DNA of 38,055 nt from Ignavibacteria bacterium (GTDB lineage Bacteria > Bacteroidota > Ignavibacteria > Ignavibacteriales > Melioribacteraceae): NCBI GenBank assembly GCA_009773205.1, contig WPAE01000014.1, positions 1-38,055 on the forward strand, written 5' to 3'. Below, in pieces: positions 1,444 to 30,419 of the stretch. The notes under the pieces were generated by a model. That model had not been told where the DNA came from and did not search any database. It saw only the letters and a list, made by a program, of their open reading frames with translations. The stretch's first letter is position 1, and each line of letters starts with the position of its first letter. A program made the translations under genes and the position numbers.

Positions 1444-1636
1444 GGAAACATACTTCTTATAACGTATATTATAGGAAAGAGCTTAAATACAACAACTTAC
1501 AAACGCAATCAACCATCAAGGTTTTGTTAACCCCTTTAATACAAATTATTTATAGCAAAGTAATATTCTTTCGAAAATCGATTTTCGAATATTTTTACAC
1601 ACCACATTGAGAAGATTTTATAATTACCTGTATTAC

Positions 1637-1757
1637 GGGCACCTCTAAAAACAAGTATTTATAAAATTTCAACCACGCCAAAAAACGGCGGGCGGGCGCA
1701 GAGTTCGAAAAGAAAACGCAAAGTCCGCAAAGAATATTGATGTTTTTAGAGGTGCCC
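1637..1757. mobile_element. MITE-like element, perfect 17-bp inverted repeats, TTAC duplication
   Basis: GGGCACCTCTAAAAACA (1637-1653) is the exact reverse complement of TGTTTTTAGAGGTGCCC (1741-1757). The element is 121 bp and is flanked on both sides by TTAC (1633-1636 and 1758-1761), a likely 4-bp target-site duplication. The core has no credible gene. Elements of related ends lie at 1772-1881 and 30314-30394. Confidence 0.75.
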
Positions 1758-1771
1758 TTACAATAATTTAT

Positions 1772-1881
1772 AGGCATCTCTAAAAATTGTCATTCTAAAT
1801 CCGCTTTAGCAGATAAAGAATTTCAGCTTTGTCTATTTGAAAGAAAACGAAGATTCTTCGTCGCTCCGTTTAGAGATGCCC
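1772..1881. mobile_element. Second MITE-like element with related ends
   Basis: GGCATCTCTAAA (1773-1784) pairs with TTTAGAGATGCC (1869-1880). The ends resemble those at 1637-1757, but the core differs: it carries a GTCATTCTAAATCCGCTTTAGC repeat also found inside the methyltransferase gene near 19955-20035. Flanks TTAT and TAAT are a one-mismatch duplication. Confidence 0.6.
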
Positions 1882-1912: not shown

Positions 1913-3565
1913 TTATAACTTTTTGATTTCTTTACCACCAAGCTCTTTGATAATTGCTTGTGCAAGTGAACTGTCTTCTAGTTGGTTTGTTTGGTTAGTA
2001 AGTTCGATGCTATTCTTTTTAGAGGAAGCTTTCTTTTTACTCACATTGATTTTTAGTTTTTTACCAAACACTTCTTTTGTCTTGGTATCCAGATAAGATT
2101 CATTGGTTTTAATAATATCTTCGTCTTCGGGATGATCAACTTCGAGGTGTATTTGATCGCTTAAAAAATTTACCGGGTTTGAATTAACGAGTACAGAACC
2201 AAAAAATACTTTTTCAGTTTTTACTTGATCTACAAAGTTTTTCCATTGTTCAATTACATTAGAAAGATCAGATTCATCTTTTACTTGAGGAACTACAAAA
2301 GATTTTACAGTAGGAAGTATAATTTCTGTATTAACCGGCTCGATATTTTTAATAGGTGCTTTTGAGTGATAAGAAATCTTTGTTTTTGGTTCACTAACCG
2401 ATGAAGAGTTAAAAGAAACTTTAAAATCACTCTTTTCAATTTTAGAAAGAAGTTCAGAAATAGTAGAGGAGCGTTCTAAGCCAATCAAATGAACAAGTGC
2501 GACTTCTAATTTCAGTTTTTGGTTTGAAGAAGTTTTAATTTCGTAAGCAGTTTTATTAATGAACGAGAGGATTCGTAAAAGATCGCCTTCCGAAAACTTA
2601 CCAGAATAGCTTAAATATTTTTGTTTAAAAATATCAGCGCCTTCAATAAGAGAAACATCATTTCTGATTATCACAGTCAATGTGTTACGGAAATGCTCTG
2701 TAAGTCCGTTTAAGAAATCAATAAAATTCCAGCCGTTCTCATAAATTTTCTGAGAAACATCGAATGCGCTGGCAAAATTCTTTTCCAAAATTGCATTAGA
2801 AATTGCAAAGTACACTTCTTCATCAATAAGGTTAAACATTACCGAAAGTTCTTCAGAATCCACTTTATTTCCGCTGAAAGCAATTACTTGATCGAACAAA
2901 CTTTGCGCATCGCGCAATGCGCCGTCTGCTTTTTTAGCTATTAAACTAAGCGCCAAATCGTCTATTTCTATGCCTTCTTTAAGAGCAATTTTTTTCAAAT
3001 GCTCTTTCATTGGCGCAATTTCTATTCTTCTAAAATCGAAACGCTGGCAGCGAGAAATTATAGTAAGGGGAACTTTGTGAATATCGGTAGTAGCAAAAAT
3101 AAAAATTGTGTGTTGAGGAGGTTCTTCTAATGTTTTAAGAAGCGCATTGAAGGCTTCTTTGGTAAGCATATGAACTTCGTCTATAATATAGACTTTATAA
3201 TTGCTTTTAGTTGGCGAGTATTTTACAGACTCTCTCAGCGTTCTTATTTCTTCTATTCCTCTGTTAGATGCGCCATCCATTTCTATTATATCGAGAGTTT
3301 GAGAGTTAGAAAACGACTCACACATTTTGCATTTATTGCAAGGCTCTCCGTTAGCAGGCTCCAAACAATTAAGAGCTTTAGCCAGAATTCTTGCAGTTGT
3401 TGTTTTACCACAGCCACGCGGACCGGTAAGTAAATAAGCATGTGCAATGCGTTTATTAATAAAAGCGTTTTTAATTGTAGTAGTAATATGTTCTTGCCCA
3501 ACTACTTCGGCAAAAGTTTGCGGGCGCCACTTTCTGGCGGTAACAATAAAATTAGGTTCACTCAT
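1913..3565 (-). CDS. dnaX: DNA polymerase III subunit gamma/tau
   Basis: This is the clamp-loader ATPase that loads the sliding clamp during replication. The N-terminal AAA+ domain has Walker A GPRGCGKTT (residues 48-56), a zinc-binding set C67, C76, C79, C82, the Walker B box IIDEVHML (127-134) and the TLEEPP stretch after it. The C-terminal part (roughly 360-550) is Lys/Ser-rich and poorly conserved, as usual for tau. Its length of 550 residues is normal. Its ATG overlaps the stop of the upstream GAF-domain gene by 4 bp (ATGA), so the two are translationally coupled. I saw no A-rich slippery site that would make a short gamma form. Confidence 0.95.
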   Translation of the reverse strand: MSEPNFIVTARKWRPQTFAEVVGQEHITTTIKNAFINKRIAHAYLLTGPRGCGKTTTARILAKALNCLEPANGEPCNKCKMCESFSNSQTLDIIEMDGASNRGIEEIRTLRESVKYSPTKSNYKVYIIDEVHMLTKEAFNALLKTLEEPPQHTIFIFATTDIHKVPLTIISRCQRFDFRRIEIAPMKEHLKKIALKEGIEIDDLALSLIAKKADGALRDAQSLFDQVIAFSGNKVDSEELSVMFNLIDEEVYFAISNAILEKNFASAFDVSQKIYENGWNFIDFLNGLTEHFRNTLTVIIRNDVSLIEGADIFKQKYLSYSGKFSEGDLLRILSFINKTAYEIKTSSNQKLKLEVALVHLIGLERSSTISELLSKIEKSDFKVSFNSSSVSEPKTKISYHSKAPIKNIEPVNTEIILPTVKSFVVPQVKDESDLSNVIEQWKNFVDQVKTEKVFFGSVLVNSNPVNFLSDQIHLEVDHPEDEDIIKTNESYLDTKTKEVFGKKLKINVSKKKASSKKNSIELTNQTNQLEDSSLAQAIIKELGGKEIKKL

Positions 3566-13199: not shown

Positions 13200-13227
13200 T
13201 AGGCGAACTACTAAAATAGCTCGCCTA
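13200..13227. terminator. Hairpin at the convergent gene ends
   Basis: TAGGCGA (13200-13206) pairs with TCGCCTA (13221-13227). It spans the res stop codon between two convergent genes. No long T-run follows on either strand, so termination activity is uncertain. Confidence 0.35.
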
Positions 13228-16105
13228 TAACTTCTTGTTTTTTCAACATCGCATATTCAAAAACATCTGTTGCAGTAGCGCCTTGTTTCCTTAGAGCTGC
13301 AAAAGTATTCTCTCCAAGTAAAACATAACTCCAGTCTCTATTCATTCTATCATTAAGCTGCAATTCGTTTATTCTCTCAACAGTATCAATAGTTGCTCTC
13401 TGTTTTTGTTGAACATTGCCTTGCGATAAATGCGATTGCGCTTTGGTCTCAACAATATAAATTCCGTTGTTTGTTTTTACTAAAAAATCTGGTGAGTAAA
13501 AAGCCAACAACCCATCTTCCCTCACATAAAATATCTTAGCAAAATCATGGTAGTATTCGTTTATCTTAATAAGTGCGAGAACATCAGTTTGTAAATCAAC
13601 AAACTCCATAAATGTTTTTTCCAATCCACCTTTATTGGATGGATATGCTTGTGCTTTATAAATCGTTTTTTCCATAGGCAGACAATACTTTTCTCTCATT
13701 CGTAGTGTTTCAACCTCAGAGAAATAGTTTTTAATTACAACAGCTTCGGTAGCAGTAATATTTTGTTGTGCGTTATAAATTGCCTCACCAAGTTCTTTCA
13801 TCATGTGGTCTATTATGCCTGATTTAGCAATCAAAAGTAACTTCCAATTATTATTTACTAAAGGATCGAAATCCTGAGAAAACAGCTTATGCCTAATAAA
13901 AATATCAATTGCTCTTACCAATGCTACTTTGTTTACTTGTAAAAATGGAAATGCTTTTTGTTTTCTTACTCCAATATTTACTACCGCATTCGTTATTACA
14001 TTTACAACTTTAGAAAGATATTCGTTATAACTTTTTGCATCAAATAAATCACCCTTAACTATATATTCACCAAATCTTGTTTTAACTGTCATTTCTTCCG
14101 AGAAGAAAACATCTCCTTCACGATTAATAAACTTTTCCAATTGCTCAATACGGTATGTTGTAAATGGTCTGATTTTGTCAACGTCAATCAAAACTTCTTT
14201 CAATTCTTCTTCGCTATCTCTAACAATTGTGGGCCAATACAAATCATATTTTTTATAATCATCTTTTAACCCAACAGTAATTATATCGCCAATAACTCCG
14301 CCGCCTGTTCCTTCTATTGTTCCAGCCAAATTTTCCTTCATCAACTCATCATAAAACTCTACAAACTTTGGATGTTCTACTATATGGAGTATATCCATCA
14401 AGTTATCTGGCTCTTTCTTCTCAGTAAGTAATTTCCTTCTATTTTCATCTTTGCTGTCCTGAAATTCCGGCTCACGCCACATTAATCTTAATCCACGCCC
14501 AATTGTTTGCTCTAATAAGATTGGTGCTTGTGCAGAACGTAGCGGAACAATCACACAAATATTATTTACGTCAAATCCTTCTCTTAACATCAGAACAGAA
14601 ACAATTACTTTCGGTTGTGCATGTTTATCAACATTGAACAACCTTCGTTTTATTTGAGACCATTCTTTTGCCGGAATATTACCTTTTCGGTCAGAATCTA
14701 TTTGCATTACATCTTCTTCGCCAAGTCCTTCTTGCATTAAGAATTGTGTTACCAAAGGTGAAACGCTCGTGTCTTCACAAATCACAAACATCTTCGGATG
14801 TTTTTCAGCTTTTATTTTTATGAATTCACTTTCCAGCTGTTTTAACTTTGTTAAACCGGCTCTTAACATTACCCGCTGTCCTTCAGAAAGACTAACCGGT
14901 TTATTTCCTTCACGTTCTGCTTTGAAGTCTAATTCCATTGCAGCAATTTCTTTTCTCTTATCAAGAGCTATTGTTTTCACTAAACCGTTTCTTATTGCGG
15001 CTGCAAGGTCAAAATCAACAATTGTATGCGGGAAATAATGCTTAGTTCTTTTCTGTCCGCTTCCGGTTACATCATAAGGTGTAGCAGAAAAATCTATTTG
15101 AATAAACTTAGTCCCCTTTGGTTGAGATATGTAATTCAAACTTCGTTGCCACTCAACCTCTTTTATTTCACCGTAAGTTTTGTTTTCGTGTATATGATGC
15201 GCCTCATCATTAAATACAGCCAAATCATTTATTGAAGCTAAGAATTCTAATTCAGCTCCGGCAAGAAAATTGTTATCTAAAGATTCCAAACTATGTCCTG
15301 CACTTGTCCCCGGTGAAATAGGGAGAAGTTCATTAATATTCTTCGGCACATTTTCTAGCAAACTTGGTTCTTCTTCGTTTTCTTCTTCTTCACTTCCTGC
15401 TAATAAATGCCAATTGGTAATTGCAATCATTCCATCGGCAGTTACCTTCCGTCCAATTTCTTCTTTCTGGCAAATAGAACTCTGAACAAAACCAAATATT
15501 TCTTCTCTAAAACTTTCTGGAATAAAAAGTTTCTCAAATACTTTTAAATCCGAACTTGCAAATTCTCTAAATCCGCTTTCTCTCTGCTTTCCTAAATAAG
15601 CATCAAGTAATCTCTCATAAACAATCAATCCGGGTGCAACAAGCAAAAAGTTTTTAGTGTATCTGCCGGTTTTTGTCTCTTCATATTTTGCGTTCAAATA
15701 TTGCCATATTAATAGTGCATGCATTACCCATGTTTTACCGGTTCCGGTAGCCATCTTCATACAATATTTTGGATGCAGATATTTTGGTTTTTGTATTTCA
15801 AATAAAAAACCTTCATCATCAAGCGTATCCTTTCCACACGCCGCATACATATCAGTTACGTTATTTATTTTAAGAACTTCATGCAGATAAATCGTATTTA
15901 GTATTGCCTGCTTTTGTCCTAAGTGAAAATTAAACTCCCTCAACTCACTAAAAGCATCAGAAAACCAAAACCTAAGCAGCTCATTTGTGATTGGTGTTGC
16001 AGCGGCAAATTGGAAATCATTGAATTCTGCATTTGCACAGCCAGAAACCTTAGCTGCAAACTTTAAGGGTAATTCTCTTGTGCCTATATTCATTGGATTG
16101 GCCAT
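13211..16105 (-). CDS. res: Type III restriction enzyme, Res subunit (helicase-nuclease)
   Basis: The 964-residue protein is a superfamily 2 translocase fused to a nuclease. Walker A is MATGTGKTW (118-126), the DEAH box is in VFNDEAHHIHE, motif III is in QIDFSATPY, and motif VI is QTIGRGLRLMWRE. A C-terminal PD-(D/E)xK nuclease follows, with PDF at about 872-874 and ETK at 886-888. With Mod it would cut DNA at unmethylated asymmetric sites in an ATP-dependent way. It starts 6 bp after the DUF1016 gene. All motifs are intact, so it is probably active. Helicases of this class also occur in other defence systems, but the nearby Mod supports type III. Confidence 0.88.
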   Translation of the reverse strand: MANPMNIGTRELPLKFAAKVSGCANAEFNDFQFAAATPITNELLRFWFSDAFSELREFNFHLGQKQAILNTIYLHEVLKINNVTDMYAACGKDTLDDEGFLFEIQKPKYLHPKYCMKMATGTGKTWVMHALLIWQYLNAKYEETKTGRYTKNFLLVAPGLIVYERLLDAYLGKQRESGFREFASSDLKVFEKLFIPESFREEIFGFVQSSICQKEEIGRKVTADGMIAITNWHLLAGSEEEENEEEPSLLENVPKNINELLPISPGTSAGHSLESLDNNFLAGAELEFLASINDLAVFNDEAHHIHENKTYGEIKEVEWQRSLNYISQPKGTKFIQIDFSATPYDVTGSGQKRTKHYFPHTIVDFDLAAAIRNGLVKTIALDKRKEIAAMELDFKAEREGNKPVSLSEGQRVMLRAGLTKLKQLESEFIKIKAEKHPKMFVICEDTSVSPLVTQFLMQEGLGEEDVMQIDSDRKGNIPAKEWSQIKRRLFNVDKHAQPKVIVSVLMLREGFDVNNICVIVPLRSAQAPILLEQTIGRGLRLMWREPEFQDSKDENRRKLLTEKKEPDNLMDILHIVEHPKFVEFYDELMKENLAGTIEGTGGGVIGDIITVGLKDDYKKYDLYWPTIVRDSEEELKEVLIDVDKIRPFTTYRIEQLEKFINREGDVFFSEEMTVKTRFGEYIVKGDLFDAKSYNEYLSKVVNVITNAVVNIGVRKQKAFPFLQVNKVALVRAIDIFIRHKLFSQDFDPLVNNNWKLLLIAKSGIIDHMMKELGEAIYNAQQNITATEAVVIKNYFSEVETLRMREKYCLPMEKTIYKAQAYPSNKGGLEKTFMEFVDLQTDVLALIKINEYYHDFAKIFYVREDGLLAFYSPDFLVKTNNGIYIVETKAQSHLSQGNVQQKQRATIDTVERINELQLNDRMNRDWSYVLLGENTFAALRKQGATATDVFEYAMLKKQEVIGELF

Positions 16106-16111
16106 AAAATT

Positions 16112-17239
16112 CTATTGTTCCAATAGTTTTTGTAATTGTTTTTTACTTGGCAGATATAATTTATATTCTCGCGCAAATATTTGTTTGTTGTCTTTTGGTA
16201 ATGTGTATTCAATTACTGCTTTGTTGGTCTGTTTGCATAGAACAATACCAACTGTTTTGTTCTCGCCTTTATTTTTAATTTCACGATCATAAAAATTCAC
16301 ATACATCTGCATCTGCCCAATGTCCTGGTGTTTTAATTCGCCAATTTTCAAATCAATCAACACAAAACATTTCAGAAGTCTGTTGTAAAAAACTAAGTCA
16401 ACATAAAAATTGTCTCCATTAAATGAGATTCTCTGCTGTCTGCTTTGAAAAAGAAAACCTTTTCCCAATTCTAAAAGAAAGTTTTCTAATTTATTAATTA
16501 TAGCAGTTTCCAACTGGCTTTCTGTGTATTCGGTTTCTTCTTTCATTCCTAAAAATTCTAAGACTACCGGCTCTTTCAGCATATCAATCGGTTTGGATAT
16601 TATCTGCCCTTTTTTGCTGAGCTCCCTAACTGCTTTTTTATTTTTGCTCAATGCAAGCCGTTCGTAAAGAGAAGTGTTGTATTGCCTTTGAAGTTCTCGA
16701 ACAGACCAGTTATTGTTTGCCGTTTCTATCTCATAAAAATTTCTTTCTTCTTCATTTTCAATTCTTAAAAGGAATGAGTAATGAGACCAGCTAAGTGGAA
16801 AGTGAAAATGAAATTTGGCGGACACTGTCTGCCATTTTACTAACTGAACATCTTTCTTATTTTGAATTACTTCTGATTTACGCGACGCTGTCGCGTATTT
16901 CTCCAATTGTGCAGACGGTGCCTGCACTATTTCAGATTTCCGCAACACTGTCGCGGAAATTCGTGTATTAAATAAAAGATAAAAATTTCTCATCCTATTC
17001 AGATTATCTTCCGAATATCCGCTTCCAAATTCTTTCGTCAATCTCTTTGATAAATTCTTTAAAGTCTTTTCGGCATATACAGCACGCTCTTTCCCTTGCT
17101 GTTCATCTTCAACTATCATTTTTCCGATATGATAATTTGTGAAAACAAGAGTTGTATTTACATTCTGAACAACAAAGTTTTTCGCTTGATCAATAAGCTG
17201 CTTAACAGATAAAAAAAGATGCGCTTTTTTCTGAGTCAT
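16112..17239 (-). CDS. DUF1016 (YhcG-like) PD-(D/E)xK nuclease
   Basis: The 375-residue protein has the DUF1016 N-terminal helical domain (about 1-100, with YHIGKMIVEDEQQGKERAVY and GSGYSEDNLNRMRNFYLLF) and a C-terminal PD-(D/E)xK nuclease domain (about 225-375) containing FYVDLVFYNRLLKCFVLIDLKIGE. In the nuclease motif the usual (E)xK is DLK. Between the domains, after NFYLLF and before LSWSHYSFLL, there is an extra segment with two similar stretches, LRKSEIVQ and SRKSEVIQ, each encoded by a hairpin (16879-16897, 16936-16960). The family often travels with restriction systems. It lies 1 bp after RAYT and 6 bp before res. Confidence 0.82.
   Translation of the reverse strand: MTQKKAHLFLSVKQLIDQAKNFVVQNVNTTLVFTNYHIGKMIVEDEQQGKERAVYAEKTLKNLSKRLTKEFGSGYSEDNLNRMRNFYLLFNTRISATVLRKSEIVQAPSAQLEKYATASRKSEVIQNKKDVQLVKWQTVSAKFHFHFPLSWSHYSFLLRIENEEERNFYEIETANNNWSVRELQRQYNTSLYERLALSKNKKAVRELSKKGQIISKPIDMLKEPVVLEFLGMKEETEYTESQLETAIINKLENFLLELGKGFLFQSRQQRISFNGDNFYVDLVFYNRLLKCFVLIDLKIGELKHQDIGQMQMYVNFYDREIKNKGENKTVGIVLCKQTNKAVIEYTLPKDNKQIFAREYKLYLPSKKQLQKLLEQ
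16879..16960 (-). repeat. Two palindromes inside the DUF1016 gene
   Basis: TACGCGAC (16879-16886) pairs with GTCGCGTA (16890-16897). ATTTCCGC (16936-16943) pairs with GCGGAAAT (16953-16960), with inner AC/GT pairing. Both share the GCGACAG-x-GT-x-GCG design and encode the near-duplicate peptides TASRKSEVIQ and TVLRKSEIVQ. Confidence 0.65.
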
Positions 17240-17240
17240 C

Positions 17241-17699
17241 TTAATCAGCTCCCTTCATTTCTTCTTTTATTTGAAGATCATATTTCTTAATAAAAAGGGC
17301 AACTTCTTCTGCAAAAGTTATTTTTTTATGATGCTCTTTCTGATTACTAATATATTTTTCAACTTCTTTAACCATTGATTCGCTAACAGAAAAAGCGCCA
17401 TAACCGGTTTGCCAACTGAATTTTTCTTTAAGATAATTCTGCTGATTTACCCAATGAGATGATTCACCTTTAACATTTTTAAAAATATCTTGAACAGAAT
17501 ATTTCTGATTTAATAAAAAAAGAATATGAACATGATCTTTCGTTCCATCTATAATTCTAACACTACAGTCAAAATCTTTTTCTAAATGTGTTTTGATATG
17601 TTGGTGCAATTCTTTTTCATAGTTTTCTGTTATTAGAGGCATTCGGTCTTTTGTGCCAAAAACACCATGCAGCCATATTTTTGTTAGTGAGTGTGACAT
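17241..17699 (-). CDS. REP-associated tyrosine transposase (RAYT; IS200/Y1 family)
   Basis: The 152-residue protein is a single-domain HUH nuclease. It has the metal-binding HVH (56-58, in DHVHIL) and a catalytic tyrosine Y116 in VEKYISNQKEHH, preceded by YGAFSVSES (100-108), all hallmarks of Y1 transposases. Such enzymes cut single-stranded DNA at the foot of hairpins. There are no IS200/605 ends or tnpB, but a hairpin array begins directly upstream (17712-18060), which is typical of RAYT loci. Start: AAGGAAAG precedes the ATG, and the first hairpin ends right at this ribosome-binding site. Its stop is 1 bp from the DUF1016 start, so it is embedded in the restriction operon rather than merely inserted. 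Confidence 0.85.
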   Translation of the reverse strand: MSHSLTKIWLHGVFGTKDRMPLITENYEKELHQHIKTHLEKDFDCSVRIIDGTKDHVHILFLLNQKYSVQDIFKNVKGESSHWVNQQNYLKEKFSWQTGYGAFSVSESMVKEVEKYISNQKEHHKKITFAEEVALFIKKYDLQIKEEMKGAD

Positions 17700-17711
17700 A
17701 ATTCTTTCCTT

Positions 17712-18060
17712 AATGATAAACCGTTGAAACGGTTTATCATTTTGATTATTATTTCAATACCCACGAATGAATTCGTGGGTTACCAAATCACATTTCACAT
17801 ATAAATTCTTTGAAGATGAATTTATCGAATCCTTTTCAACTTTATTACTAACCTACAGATTTATCTGTTCTTCATTATGAAACCATTAAAATGGTTTCTT
17901 GTTTTTTATTGTTTCTTTAATACCCACGATTAAAATCGTGGGTTACTTATTCTTATTTTGCACAGAAATTCATGGTTTCAAAGCTCACTGTTACAAAACC
18001 CACAGATTTATCTGTGGGTACTTCGATACATACTAAATCCATAAACCGATTCATCGGTTT
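17712..18060. repeat. Array of about nine alternating REP-like hairpins
   Basis: Class A hairpins (AAACC...GGTTT) are at 17712-17741, 17879-17898 and 18043-18060. Class B hairpins (ACCCAC...GTGGGT) are at 17759-17780, 17922-17943 and 17998-18019. Weaker members are at 17801-17825, 17855-17868 (ACAGATTTATCTGT, the core of the one at 17998) and about 17965-17979. Centres are mostly 36-48 bp apart. Within a class the outer arms are constant and the inner arms differ yet remain complementary. Loops are TGAA, TAAA, TT or TC. The array fills the mod-RAYT gap. Confidence 0.8.
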
Positions 18061-20228
18061 TAATTTTCTATCAATTCTATCACAGCGCTTTCAAACCCAA
18101 ATACATCTACCGCTTTTACACATACTTTTCTTCTTTCTTTTTTAGGAACTTCAATTACTGCCTCTGTTACAACTCTTAATGGATCGGCATCGTTCTCTGT
18201 ATTTTCTCTGTAATCTTGCCATCGGCTTCTAAATACTTCTCCGTCATAATCCGGGTCAACGCTCCAATACTCAATTAAAGCAAGCGGTTCATTAGCAACA
18301 ATCTTTTGTAATTTCTCTTTATCCGCTTCACTTAATGGCAGCGCGTCAGGTGAAAGCAAAACATAGTTATCCAGTTTAATTGTAATTTGGTCTTTCTCTT
18401 CAATTCCACTTTCCACTTTTACCTTTATACTTTTTACTTGTATCGGTTTTATGGTTAAGTATTGCAAAGAAGAAAAACGAATCTTTCCGCTTTTTATTAA
18501 CTGCTGATAAGAAGTTTTTGTTTTTAATCTGTCAAGTAAATCTGCCGGTATTACAAGCACTTCAAGGTTCTCATCATTCAAAGAAGAAATTACTTGCCCA
18601 ATGTTGGTTTCAAAATTCCAGCCAAGCACAATTACTTTTTGCCAGCCGCCCATAAATTGTGCCCGCCATTGCTGTGCCTTCTTAATTGTATTGAAGCCAG
18701 TAAGTTTATTTGGAGAATCCACTACCACTAATGTTCTGCTGTTTTTAATATAGCCAACATTTGGCGGCGCGTCTTTTTGTGTAAAGGGCATTGCGCCATA
18801 TAATTGCAATACAACTTGCGCAAGCGAACCAATTGTTTTGAACTCACTTTTGCTAAATTGTTCTTTCTGGTAATCTCCAATTGAATGATAAAAAAACGGT
18901 TGTGCGTTTTGGTCTATCAATCTTTTCCTCATTATCATGCAAGCCGGTTTACCAAGATCACCCATTATCCATTTTCTGCCAAGCTTTTCAGCAACTGCAC
19001 CTGTTGTGCCGGCACCTCCAAAGAAATCGGCAACTATTGAATCTTGATTAGAAGATTGACAAATAATTCTTTTTAGTAAGTCTTCTGGCTTTTGTGTTGC
19101 ATAACCAATTGCTTCATAAGAATTAGAAGAAATAAGCTTTATGTCATCCCAAAGATTTCCAATTTTTCGTCCATCATATTCATCTGAATATCTTTTATAT
19201 CGCGGTCTCCCATTATCAGTCCAAAAAATGATGTATGGATTTTCTTTTATTCTTTGATCGAATGTTTCTTGAGTCCATCTCCAGCCTAAATCACTTGTGA
19301 CTGTTTTTCCATTTATTATTCTAATCTGTCCTTTGCTATAAGAATTTGAAGACTGTTCCAATTTTTCATGTGTGTATCTCCTTCCAGTTTCTTTTTCTGT
19401 ATAAGGAAATTTTTCATCCAATTCTTCATCAGATAAATCCTGATATTGTTGATTATAAATACAACTTGATGTTTTGGTGTAATAATAAATACTATCCGTC
19501 ATTACATCCAATCCACGAGCAAGGTGGTGCCCACCGGTTCTTTTAAATACAATATCAGCTTGAAAATTTTCTTTCCCGAAAATCTCATCCATCATAACTT
19601 TTACATAATGCCCAACGTGCCAATCAATATGTATGTAAATACTTCCTTGATCACTTAACAATTCGCGCATTAAAACCAATCGTGGATAAATCATTTTCAA
19701 ATAACTTGCTGTTCCATCTTTCCAAGTATCGCTGTAAGCAAATTGTTCAATAACTGTTGGCTTCTGTTCAACATCACCGTTAGGTAAAGTTACTTTAGTT
19801 CTGTAATCTGCTTTGCTGTCAAATGGCGGGTCATTATACATCAAATCAATTTTACCACGCAAGGAAGGCAAACCGCTTTTTTCATCCCCGGCAAGTAACG
19901 CTTGCATTGCTAAAAGGTTATCACCATAAATAAGTCGGTTAAGCCACAAATTCTGAGGGAGCGAAGTGATCGAAGAAACTCCTAATTCTCGGTGCAGAGA
20001 TTCTTCACCCGCTAAAGCGGATTCAGAATGACCTACTGAATTTGGTATCTGTGGTGTTTTTCCTTTCCAAAGTCCGCTAATGTCTTTAGCTGGTAAAACC
20101 AATTCGTTAGTTTGCAAAGTAATACGCGTTGGCTGTGCAAGCTTCTCTAAAATCTGTTCCGCTTCACGTTTACCCTCAGCAACAATCTTTGGCAGCAGTT
20201 CAATCAAACTTTGTTTTTGTTCTGGCAT
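18060..20228 (-). CDS. mod: Type III DNA methyltransferase, Mod subunit
   Basis: This 722-residue adenine-type methyltransferase provides sequence recognition and protective methylation for Res. Motif order is the beta class: the catalytic motif IV DPPF (133-136, in IDLMYNDPPFDSK) comes before the S-adenosylmethionine-binding motif I DFFGGAGTTG (401-410). Residues about 240-375 are the likely target-recognition region. The C-terminal part (about 450-722) resembles the extended end of type III Mods. Residues about 64-91 are encoded by a dispersed repeat (see 19955-20035) lying between the N-terminal region and LWLNRLIYGDN. The stop codon abuts the last hairpin of the array. Confidence 0.88.
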   Translation of the reverse strand: MPEQKQSLIELLPKIVAEGKREAEQILEKLAQPTRITLQTNELVLPAKDISGLWKGKTPQIPNSVGHSESALAGEESLHRELGVSSITSLPQNLWLNRLIYGDNLLAMQALLAGDEKSGLPSLRGKIDLMYNDPPFDSKADYRTKVTLPNGDVEQKPTVIEQFAYSDTWKDGTASYLKMIYPRLVLMRELLSDQGSIYIHIDWHVGHYVKVMMDEIFGKENFQADIVFKRTGGHHLARGLDVMTDSIYYYTKTSSCIYNQQYQDLSDEELDEKFPYTEKETGRRYTHEKLEQSSNSYSKGQIRIINGKTVTSDLGWRWTQETFDQRIKENPYIIFWTDNGRPRYKRYSDEYDGRKIGNLWDDIKLISSNSYEAIGYATQKPEDLLKRIICQSSNQDSIVADFFGGAGTTGAVAEKLGRKWIMGDLGKPACMIMRKRLIDQNAQPFFYHSIGDYQKEQFSKSEFKTIGSLAQVVLQLYGAMPFTQKDAPPNVGYIKNSRTLVVVDSPNKLTGFNTIKKAQQWRAQFMGGWQKVIVLGWNFETNIGQVISSLNDENLEVLVIPADLLDRLKTKTSYQQLIKSGKIRFSSLQYLTIKPIQVKSIKVKVESGIEEKDQITIKLDNYVLLSPDALPLSEADKEKLQKIVANEPLALIEYWSVDPDYDGEVFRSRWQDYRENTENDADPLRVVTEAVIEVPKKERRKVCVKAVDVFGFESAVIELIEN
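19955..20035 (-). repeat. Dispersed repeat translated in frame inside mod
   Basis: Read on the minus strand, GTCATTCTGAATCCGCTTTAGC and the bases after it match the core of the element at 1772-1881 with about 6 differences in 39. GAAGAATCTC can pair with GAGTTTCTTC within it. It encodes GHSESALAGEESLHRELGVSSITSLP with no stop or frameshift. Confidence 0.7.
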
Positions 20229-23204: not shown

Positions 23205-23252
23205 GGGCTGTGTTTAATCTTGTTTTACTTAGATTAGATGCAGCCCGTTTTT
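23205..23252 (+). terminator. Rho-independent terminator of rpsA
   Basis: GGGCTG (23205-23210) pairs with CAGCCC (23241-23246), with an inner stem TAATCT (23215-23220) / AGATTA (23231-23236), followed by GTTTTT. Confidence 0.8.
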
Positions 23253-23256
23253 GTAA

Positions 23257-23341
23257 GAATTTTGAATTTTGAGTTTTGGATTTTGAGTTTAGCATTTTGG
23301 GTTTTGGATTTAGGATTTTGGATTTTGAGTTTTGGATTTTT
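23257..23341. repeat. Heptanucleotide tandem repeat upstream of mtaB
   Basis: About twelve imperfect copies of a 7-bp unit (ATTTTGA / GTTTTGGA / ATTTTGG variants) fill the gap between the rpsA terminator and the mtaB ribosome-binding site. It keeps an open frame, which falsely extends mtaB upstream. Confidence 0.75.
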
Positions 23342-23353
23342 ACAAAGGGATTT

Positions 23354-24703
23354 ATGTCTGCAAAGGTTGCATTTTATACATTAGGCTGTAAGCTGAATTT
23401 TTCCGAGACTTCTACAATTGGCGAGCAGTTTCTAAATCGTGGTTATGAAGTAACTGAATACAATGAAAAAGCCGATGTGTATGTTATTAATACTTGTTCT
23501 GTTACAGATAACGCCGATAAAGAATGCCGGCAAATGGTACGCCGCGCGCTAAAGAATAATCCAGAAGCATATATAATTGTTACCGGCTGTTACGCGCAGC
23601 TTCGCCCAGATGAAATTGTAAAGATTGATGGAGTAGATGCTGTTTTAGGCAGCAATGAAAAATTTAAGTTGTTTGAATACATAAACAATTTTGAAAAGCA
23701 AAAACTCTCGTGTATCTATGTTTCACCAACCGAAAAATTGAATGAGTTCAATTCTTCATTCTCTACAGAAGGAAATGAGCGCACACGCGCTTTCTTCAAA
23801 ATTCAAGATGGCTGCGATTACAAATGCACATTTTGCACTATTCCTCTTGCTCGTGGTAAAAGCAGAAGCGCTAAACCCGATGAAGTTGTCAATGAATTTA
23901 CACAACTTCTCGATGCCGGCTTCAAAGAAATTATTCTTACAGGTGTAAATGTTGGCGATTATTCTTATCATCTAAATCTTGATCGAAGTTTAAAAGAAGA
24001 ACAAGAAACAGATCTGTTTCTGCTATTGCAAAAAATGCTTTCTATTAAAGGAGAATATAGAATTCGCATAAGTTCTATTGAGCCAAATCTTCTAAGCGAT
24101 AATATTTTAGAATTAACGGCAAACGATTCCAGGATGTGTAACCATTTCCACATTCCACTGCAAAGCGGAAGTTCTAAAGTTCTAATGCTGATGCAGCGCA
24201 GATACAAAACGGTTGATTATAAAACTCTAATTCACAAAGCAGTTGAGAAAATTGCTAATCTTGCAATTGGCGTTGATGTTATAGTTGGATTTCCAGGAGA
24301 AACAGAAGAAGATTTTTCAGAAACTTACTCATTCTTACGCGATCTGCCTATTTCCTACTTGCACGTCTTTACTTATTCCGAAAGACCAAATACAAAAGCA
24401 ATTGAGATGCCTGGAAATGTGGATTACATAGAACGCAAAAAACGAAATAATATGCTTAGAATCTTGAGCGAGAAAAAAAGGCATGAGTTTTATCAGAGTA
24501 TGATTGGAAAAGAATTAACCGCTTTGTTCGAGCATGAAGAGCGCAATGGAGAAATGCGCGGCTTTACATCCAACTATTTACGAATTAAGGCACCATATAA
24601 TTCCGAATTAATTAATAAATTTGTTCCGGTTAAAATAAAGGAGGTTGGCGAGAATATTTGTACAGCGGAGATTTTACTGCAAACAGAATTAAAGACTAAA
24701 TAA
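23354..24703 (+). CDS. mtaB: tRNA t6A37 methylthiotransferase MtaB
   Basis: This radical-SAM enzyme adds a methylthio group to t6A37 of tRNAs. The N-terminal UPF0004 domain has the iron-sulfur cysteines in LGCKLNFSE, NTCSVTDNADKECR and TGCYAQ. The radical-SAM motif is CDYKCTFCTIP, and a TRAM-like domain ends the protein (about 385-449). LGCKLNFSE and the SVTDNADKECR form distinguish MtaB from MiaB and RimO. The ATG at 23276 is rejected because its first 26 codons are heptanucleotide repeat; AAAGGGA at 23344-23350 supports 23354, giving about 449 residues. Confidence 0.93.
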   Translation: MSAKVAFYTLGCKLNFSETSTIGEQFLNRGYEVTEYNEKADVYVINTCSVTDNADKECRQMVRRALKNNPEAYIIVTGCYAQLRPDEIVKIDGVDAVLGSNEKFKLFEYINNFEKQKLSCIYVSPTEKLNEFNSSFSTEGNERTRAFFKIQDGCDYKCTFCTIPLARGKSRSAKPDEVVNEFTQLLDAGFKEIILTGVNVGDYSYHLNLDRSLKEEQETDLFLLLQKMLSIKGEYRIRISSIEPNLLSDNILELTANDSRMCNHFHIPLQSGSSKVLMLMQRRYKTVDYKTLIHKAVEKIANLAIGVDVIVGFPGETEEDFSETYSFLRDLPISYLHVFTYSERPNTKAIEMPGNVDYIERKKRNNMLRILSEKKRHEFYQSMIGKELTALFEHEERNGEMRGFTSNYLRIKAPYNSELINKFVPVKIKEVGENICTAEILLQTELKTK

Positions 24704-29824: not shown

Positions 29825-30419
29825 ACACTTCTCTCCGATTGTGGATTGATTTAGTTAGAAACGAGAGTTACACCTCTCATTAATTGATACAATCTATACG
29901 CAATTCTTTTAGATAATACTGGTTCTGTTAATTAGCGAATGAAGAATCTGTTTTTAATCTGAAAAAAGAAGTTTCGTGTCTATAAACTAAAAGTATGATA
30001 CGAATTTTTCAGTTGCCTCTATTTATTATTTTTGCAGCCTAATGTTCGCTAACTTATAAGCAACATAATTTGAAAAAATCTCAAAAACAATAGGTTAGGG
30101 CAGTTCTAAAAATTAGTTTGTAATAGCACAATAGAAATGCCGGTAAAAAGTAGTTTACGTGTTTCAAAAAAAAGGTCCGTCGAATGGAAAACTTACTGAC
30201 AATGAGTATGAAAGAAGAGAGTCGGCTCAAGTCAATAAGCCAGTTAGAGGAGAAAAAAATTAGTCGGTTAGTAGTGATTTTAAATCTAAATTTGTAATAG
30301 ATTATTTTCTATTTGGCACCTCTAAAAACTTTTGTTTTAAAATATTTCATCCCGCAAAGCGGGGCAAAGGAAATTGATATTTTTAGAGGCGCCCTATTAA
30401 CAATCACTAAAATTAGCTG
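29825..30419. other. 595-bp intergenic region with repeat remnants
   Basis: This holds the control region of susC and the leader of the AlbA_2 gene. A lone GGGCAGTTCTAAAAA at 30098-30112 resembles the ends of the GGGCACCTCTAAAAA elements. A complete element lies at 30314-30394. TATTTTTG at 30027-30034 resembles a -7 box but has no -33 partner, and the ATG after it opens only five codons. No gene or tRNA is seen. Confidence 0.5.
30314..30394. mobile_element. MITE-like element with TATT duplication
   Basis: GGCACCTCTAAAA (30315-30327) pairs with TTTTAGAGGCGCC (30381-30393) with one mismatch. TATT flanks both sides (30310-30313 and 30395-30398). At 81 bp it is shorter than the 1637 element and has a different core containing CCCGCAAAGCGGGG. 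It ends 25 bp before the next gene. Confidence 0.7.

Follow-up and report, generated by a model that had tools for sequence, protein, structure and literature searches.

PMC10969869 describes type II MITEs as elements that resemble autonomous ISs only in their ends. PMC4596501 reports on BrickBuilt and MITEPgRS of Porphyromonas gingivalis, which have nearly identical ends matching those of IS5-family ISs and are dissimilar over the rest of their sequences. Here, we analyse three short elements in a window of 38,055 nucleotides (the whole stretch of DNA under study, contig C242), which belongs to an Ignavibacteria draft genome of 4,140,253 bases in 476 contigs (completeness 99.95), called the source genome below. 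An earlier sequence-only reading had proposed that these elements of 121, 110 and 81 bp share related terminal inverted repeats, and all three are present as described there. We regard it as highly likely that they are members of a type II MITE family and were moved in trans by an IS5-family transposase. The elements, their target-site duplications and one further end-like sequence are the following:

1633..1636, no strand assigned: target-site duplication TTAC, left of the 1637-1757 element
1637..1757, no strand assigned: MITE copy of 121 bp, core family A, with terminal inverted repeats 1637-1651 and 1743-1757
1758..1761, no strand assigned: target-site duplication TTAC, right of the 1637-1757 element
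1772..1881, no strand assigned: MITE copy of 110 bp, core family B, with a REP-like core starting GTCATTCTAAATCC
30098..30112, plus strand: solitary end-like sequence with 2 mismatches, which is unpaired and may be a decayed copy
30310..30313, no strand assigned: target-site duplication TATT, left of the 30314-30394 element
30314..30394, no strand assigned: MITE copy of 81 bp, core family A, with terminal inverted repeats 30314-30328 and 30380-30394
30395..30398, no strand assigned: target-site duplication TATT, right of the 30314-30394 element

The first two elements are adjacent, with 14 bp between them, and lie between a gene at 565-1443 (no Pfam match at E<=1e-5) and a dnaX-like gene at 1913-3565 on the minus strand; a gene encoding a Schlafen/AlbA_2 domain lies downstream of the third element. 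With at most 3 mismatches, the end motif occurs 9 times in the window versus a mean of 1.37 and a maximum of 5 in shuffled sequences, none of 100 shuffles reaching 9. The two perfect 4-bp duplications noticed before, TTAC/TTAC and TATT/TATT, were recovered as well; the flanks of the 1772-1881 element (TTAT/TAAT) are alike in three of four bases. The nearest relative of the 1637-1757 element (L149) is of equal length, that of the 30314-30394 element (L092) differs by one base, and the 1772-1881 element matches its 138-bp relative L122 over the full length, apart from a 28-bp internal deletion and two differing bases. No match to Rfam was obtained at gathering scores anywhere in the window. Two repeat pairs at 1-159 and 193-407, which are 92% alike over 63 and 79 nt, look by eye like 5S rRNA remnants; they gave no Rfam match at gathering score, and a similar sequence follows dnaX in the genome G001. 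A tandem array with a 14-bp unit and about six copies is located at 23246-23354.

In the source genome, the degenerate end motif GGGCRYCTCTAAAAA was found 172 times in forward and 167 times in reverse orientation (339 matches with at most 2 mismatches), compared to 19 and 17 matches (36) for the reversed motif used as a control. With at most 1 mismatch, the GGGCATC form gave 64 forward and 61 reverse matches versus 0 and 0 in the control, the GGGCGCC form 61 and 76 versus 1 and 0. A search of the genome for facing pairs of ends, which the sequence-only reading had advised, brought up many more elements. Our census covered the window and 122 loci of the source genome, drawn from the matches listed (100 of 339, 100 of 125 and 100 of 137, plus further listed places). 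Ends were paired by a script that was blind to the flanks and accepted one end with at most 2 and the other with at most 4 mismatches (sum at most 5) at a distance below about 465 bp; this yielded 107 paired elements and 29 single ends. The end-bearing elements constitute a large MITE family in the source draft genome.

Perfect 4-bp duplications flank 80 of the 107 paired elements in this partial census. When the left flank of one element was combined with the right flank of another, full 4-bp identity occurred in only 8.5% of 11,342 combinations; the tabulation of duplications that had been called for thus came out far above chance. The flanks of the remaining pairs agree in three (12 pairs), two (10), one (4) or none (1) of the four bases. 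Perfect flank identity at 5, 6 or 7 bp was found for none of the 107 pairs, at 2 bp for 8 and at 3 bp for 6. The commonest duplications are TTAA (23), ATAA (9) and TTTA (8). We counted the 27 elements that lack a perfect duplication and the 29 unpaired ends against an explanation by IS5-type MITEs. The 29 single ends were all inspected by eye, and some of them belong to six loci close to the end of a contig (L004, L015, L109, L116, L129, L142); an IS was seen by eye behind none of them, the adjoining DNA looking like MITE core, other repeats or unrelated sequence.

One insertion can be compared with related genes lacking the element. An 81-bp copy (L006) with the flanks TAGT/TAGT interrupts a PhoU-domain gene of the source genome at codon 162. 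The joined flanks match G001 (61%, residues 1-218) and G003 (60%, residues 1-219), which belong to the same genus as the source genome, in one open frame each, and the alignments are ungapped across the junction at codon 162; the match within the source genome itself consists of two pieces (1-162 and 159-229). Judged from these alignments, the position in G001 and G003 appears to be an empty site, with the reservation that further relatives of the PhoU gene exist in the source genome and in others. In the stretch downstream of dnaX that was examined in G001, no end motif with at most 3 mismatches occurs; at the equivalent loci near contig ends, G005 has no end motif and G004 one single weak match. 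A search of the other 38 near genomes for exactly matching pairs of ends spanning 66-96 bp found none, and the exact end was absent from three other genomes of the genus (G001, G004, G005); diverged copies would have escaped either search. These absences suggest that the family arrived or expanded in the lineage of the source genome. In viral contigs, an exact-match scan for paired ends gave no hit in four spacing ranges, which together span 40-163 bp.

The 107 listed elements have lengths of 71-263 bp (pairing limit about 465 bp). Speaking of mobilised "cargo", as the sequence-only reading did, is an overstatement, as elements of this size are too short for a usual gene. Among 214 ends, bases 8-15 are kept in at least 95%, base 1 is a G in 81%, and variation between A/G and C/T is seen at bases 5 and 6. 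The commonest base accounts for only 44-57% at bases 16-20 and is back up to 68-83% at bases 21-24, a renewed agreement for which the predominance of a single core family may account. Clustering the cores by BLAST with single linkage, after removal of the first and last 16 bases, resulted in the clusters A (83 elements), B (13) and C (5) and in 6 singletons; single linkage can chain via nested repeats, and cluster A is possibly somewhat too large. The core of the 1772-1881 element belongs to B, and those of 1637-1757 and 30314-30394 both belong to A, where they are joined through intermediates. A direct BLAST match between the latter two cores was not found at E<=1e-4; their direct alignment showed that both subterminal regions are common and that the internal segments differ. 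The three cores had been called unrelated, which is correct for 1772-1881 but not for the two members of A.

Other repeats occur in the vicinity of the MITEs. Ends like GAGCCTACTCTAAAAAG mark another repeat, which lies several times in or beside MITEs (L013, L093, L096, L133, L150). At L109, L116, L150, L093 and L096, a sequence that begins with CATNRGCRTCAAC interrupts the core hairpin CCCGC(A/T)AAGCG (or its complement) at a single position; it looks like an element targeting the hairpin of the MITE core.

The exact end occurs in 10 of 391 genomes of the class, including the source genome. In G038, a transposase gene interrupted by one in-frame stop lies between facing ends that are 1,268 bp apart and flanked by TCTA/TCTA. 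G169 contains an IS of 1,340 bp (flanks AATA/AATA, one end with 1 mismatch) with an open frame of 376 codons. The G038 transposase fragment has matches in four of the ten exact-end genomes (G038, G119, G169, G190) and in none of the other six, to which the source genome belongs; ends without the enzyme are therefore common, a result that a stray motif could also give and that we counted against the explanation. At the transposase match in G119 only one end was found; the full-length copy in G190 has other ends, and a sister element there has the ends GGGGACTTCCAAAAA. Scores above the cut-off of NF033581 (transpos_IS5_4) were obtained for L070, L071, L072 and the L045 fragment, and both DUF772 and DDE_Tnp_1 domains were found in L070 and in the L045 fragment. 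A comparison by eye of these IS ends with the MITE cores revealed agreement over about 16 bp only.

By means of a profile of four transposases, at least 502 relatives were identified among 587 candidate stretches in named genomes, and the best 80 of the 502 were used; several of these come from one genome (e.g. L223, L224, L226), and 65 have more than 150 bp before and more than 200 bp after the match. For these best 80 of 502, the motif was present with at most 4 mismatches at both expected places in 67 loci, at one place in 13 and at neither in 0, whereas eight shuffled motifs were found at both ends in 0-1 loci and with a duplication in 0. With at most 1 mismatch, the real motif was found at both ends of 35 of the 80, a shuffled one at 0. 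A perfect 4-bp duplication accompanies 38 of the best 80 of 502, where the pairing prefers duplications. The 67 loci with both ends include records titled Bacteroidetes, Ignavibacteria, Spirochaetales, Nitrospira, Clostridia, Sulfurimonas and Candidatus Ruthturnera. Because 67 of the 80 loci, in records from several phyla, carry the end, it characterises a broad IS5-type group rather than the source genome.

A transposase gene with the same ends, for which a check had also been advised, thus exists in other genomes, but none was found in the source assembly. There, the 228-residue transposase fragment gave 0 matches at E<=0.001 and the four-row transposase profile 0 matches at E<=1e-20, and both results were counted against the explanation. 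Similarly, none of the six DDE_Tnp_1 matches in the source genome is bracketed by facing ends with at most 3 mismatches; at L039 and L042 neighbouring MITE ends are close by, and a partner can be found at chance level if 4 mismatches are allowed. A partner element of the IS5 family was accordingly not detected in the source genome (0 matches), which as a draft of 476 contigs could lack it. Multi-copy ISs are often missing from draft assemblies; therefore, absence from the assembly is weak evidence for absence from the cell. The acting enzyme very probably belongs to the IS5 family (NF033581, transpos_IS5_4 type); we infer its identity, as no copy was found in the source draft genome.

The proposed course of events is as follows. 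The three window elements are gene-less short DNA with the 15-bp terminal inverted repeats GGGCRYCTCTAAAAA. A transposase of the transpos_IS5_4 type, supplied in trans, would bind the two ends, cut the element out or copy it, and then paste it into a staggered 4-bp cut, such that insertion would duplicate 4 bp of a mostly AT-rich target. Since recognition would be confined to about 15 bp, the interior could be any short sequence; the length classes would have been made by internal deletions, segment swaps and later insertions. The enzyme may either have been lost from the lineage or reside in DNA lacking from the draft assembly. Like type II MITEs, the elements are short and without coding capacity, possess terminal inverted repeats, show a fixed 4-bp duplication, occur in high copy number and resemble an autonomous IS at their ends only. 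The sequence-only reading had already suggested a transposase that recognises the ends alone and mobilises varied interiors. This suggestion is supported, with the restriction that only one of the three window cores stands apart from the others. It fits at least three core types behind 15-bp ends, 80 of 107 duplications, the empty site, and the IS5 ends found in several phyla.

The same reading had linked the core of the second element to a repeat inside mod, and this link was borne out: positions 1789-1827 and 19994-20032 are 85% complementary over 39 nt. The mod-like gene is part of a minus-strand locus (13214-20228) that resembles a type III restriction system and in which we note:

13214-16105, minus strand: ResIII protein
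16115-17239, minus strand: YhcG-type nuclease
17244-17699: IS200-like Y1 transposase gene, between mod and YhcG
18063-20228, minus strand: N6_N4 methylase, mod-like
19994..20032, minus strand: REP-like relative of core B within the mod-like gene, without terminal inverted repeats nearby (locus L280)

The REP-like repeat region (19957-20032) falls within the mod-like reading frame and would therefore be translated. In the source genome, 45 occurrences of the pattern GTCATTCTGA..GAAGAATC were found, compared to 0 in the control; the REP-like repeats of core B are palindromic and are present in both orientations within the elements read. The loci of 30 of the 45 matches were analysed, of which L293 was left out, several matches sharing one element. 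An element end (at most 2 mismatches) is near 21 of these 29 clearly read loci and absent from 8, the mod-like copy among them; hence, the REP-like sequence occurs both inside and outside of elements. As to the order of events, capture of the REP-like sequence by an element is the simpler guess.

Three Y1_Tnp matches were found in the source genome. Just upstream of the Y1 transposase gene in the window there are two palindromic repeats of the CCCACGAAT..ATTCGTGGGTT type (17740-17808 and 17903-17971, 75% alike), which are possibly this transposase's own REP-like sites. At L012, L020 and L021, one-ended copies of core B stop at the identical base of the palindrome, after GATTCTTCATC, and are followed by different DNA. 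One-ended, Y1-like movement was considered for these three and dropped, as other single-ended copies break elsewhere; L137 and L153, which by eye look like right-end deletions with the TTAA duplication kept, also speak against it, though TTAA is common.

It is very improbable that the elements are structural or regulatory repeats, such as terminators or REP/BIME-like hairpins, which spread in some other way and whose inverted ends form a stem and no transposase site. As single strands, all three window elements do fold better than shuffles (z of -5.5, -3.5 and -3.4), core B is REP-like and has copies without ends at 8 of 29 loci, and the window harbours an IS200-like Y1 transposase gene. However, the 4-bp duplications of 80 of 107 elements and the empty site show insertion at a staggered cut, identical ends bound whole IS5-family elements, and 94 of the 107 elements are outside the core B cluster. 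To our knowledge, Y1 enzymes make no staggered cuts. We give just as little credence to a mover from another transposase family with a different chemistry, whose ends would be similar by chance. Three other DDE transposases with open frames of 469, 508 and 515 codons (L038-L040) are indeed encoded in the source genome, but none is bracketed by facing ends with at most 3 mismatches, whereas the motif brackets 67 of the best 80 of 502 loci of the transpos_IS5_4 type, compared to 0-1 for shuffled motifs.

The most probable of the alternatives is a dead family, mobilised long ago by an enzyme that is now lost and surviving as a relic; we consider this quite possible, without favouring it. It is in line with the failure to find a transposase in the assembly, with the divergence of many copies (median pairwise identity of 0.82 in the 97-bp class) and with the presence of decayed and nested copies. 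On the other hand, within the 81-bp class an identity of 97% or more is reached by 13 of 78 pairs, the best being identical, and 80 of 107 duplications are intact. This evidence concerns the date of the movement and not its mechanism.

A more far-reaching reading, which we deem unlikely, regards the IS5-type end as a general capture frame: the same few kinds of scattered intergenic repeats (CAAAG-rich, GATAAAAC-rich, and REP-like GTCATTC../GTCATTG..) would have been packed repeatedly, in genera that are not related, between GGGCRYCTCTAAAAA ends. IS5-family enzymes, rather than enzymes of their own, would then be responsible for the spread of some REP-like and other short repeats in environmental bacteria. 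By eye, same-ended elements contain a REP-like GTCATTGCG... pair in G309 and cores of the GATAAAACGGATT type in G119. Three of 10 elements from other genomes of the class match cores of the source genome at E<=0.01, versus 3 of 200 queries obtained by simple base shuffling; the matches are 14-28 bp long, and the three elements stem from two genomes, the two from G119 being near-copies, which leaves about two independent cases. A repeated packing of alike repeat kinds across genomes is thereby hinted at, as a lead only. If the capture reading were true, the origin and spread of several common unassigned short repeats would be explained; as the evidence stands, the family is a tidy, ordinary case. 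It suggests that an IS5-family transposase needs about 15 bp per end, and since the conservation of this end extends over several phyla, orphan MITEs can be sought and assigned with the help of the end sequence alone.

In the open-licence literature, no relevant paper was found for the end sequence, and the matches listed for the core sequences look unrelated; no paper came up there on MITEs whose interiors are unrelated, and a query combining "MITE" with the whole word "Ignavibacteri" gave none, which carries little weight as the stem is not a whole word. The present family is new, and its kind is already known (type II MITE, with a precedent in P. gingivalis). With the type II MITEs of PMC10969869 it shares small size, the lack of genes, similarity to ISs only in the terminal inverted repeats and, presumably, movement in trans; in contrast, no autonomous partner was found in the assembly, and at least three core types occur under one end. 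REP/BIME repeats, which are covered together with their Y1 transposases in PMC2817692 and PMC3116915, are resembled by core B with its REP-like repeats in opposite orientations; unlike these, core B is enclosed by IS5-type ends with 4-bp duplications. The IS5-family ISs of NF033581 have identical 15-bp ends and the 4-bp duplication, but are about 1.2-1.35 kb long and contain a transposase gene, which is lacking in the elements described here. BrickBuilt and MITEPgRS/464 (PMC4596501) likewise form two families with near-identical ends and an unrelated rest, and their interiors hold other repeats. They differ by the end GAGACC..., partner ISs in the genome, lengths of 84-991 nt and duplications of varying length; for BrickBuilt, the same paper gives 19 copies in the strain described.
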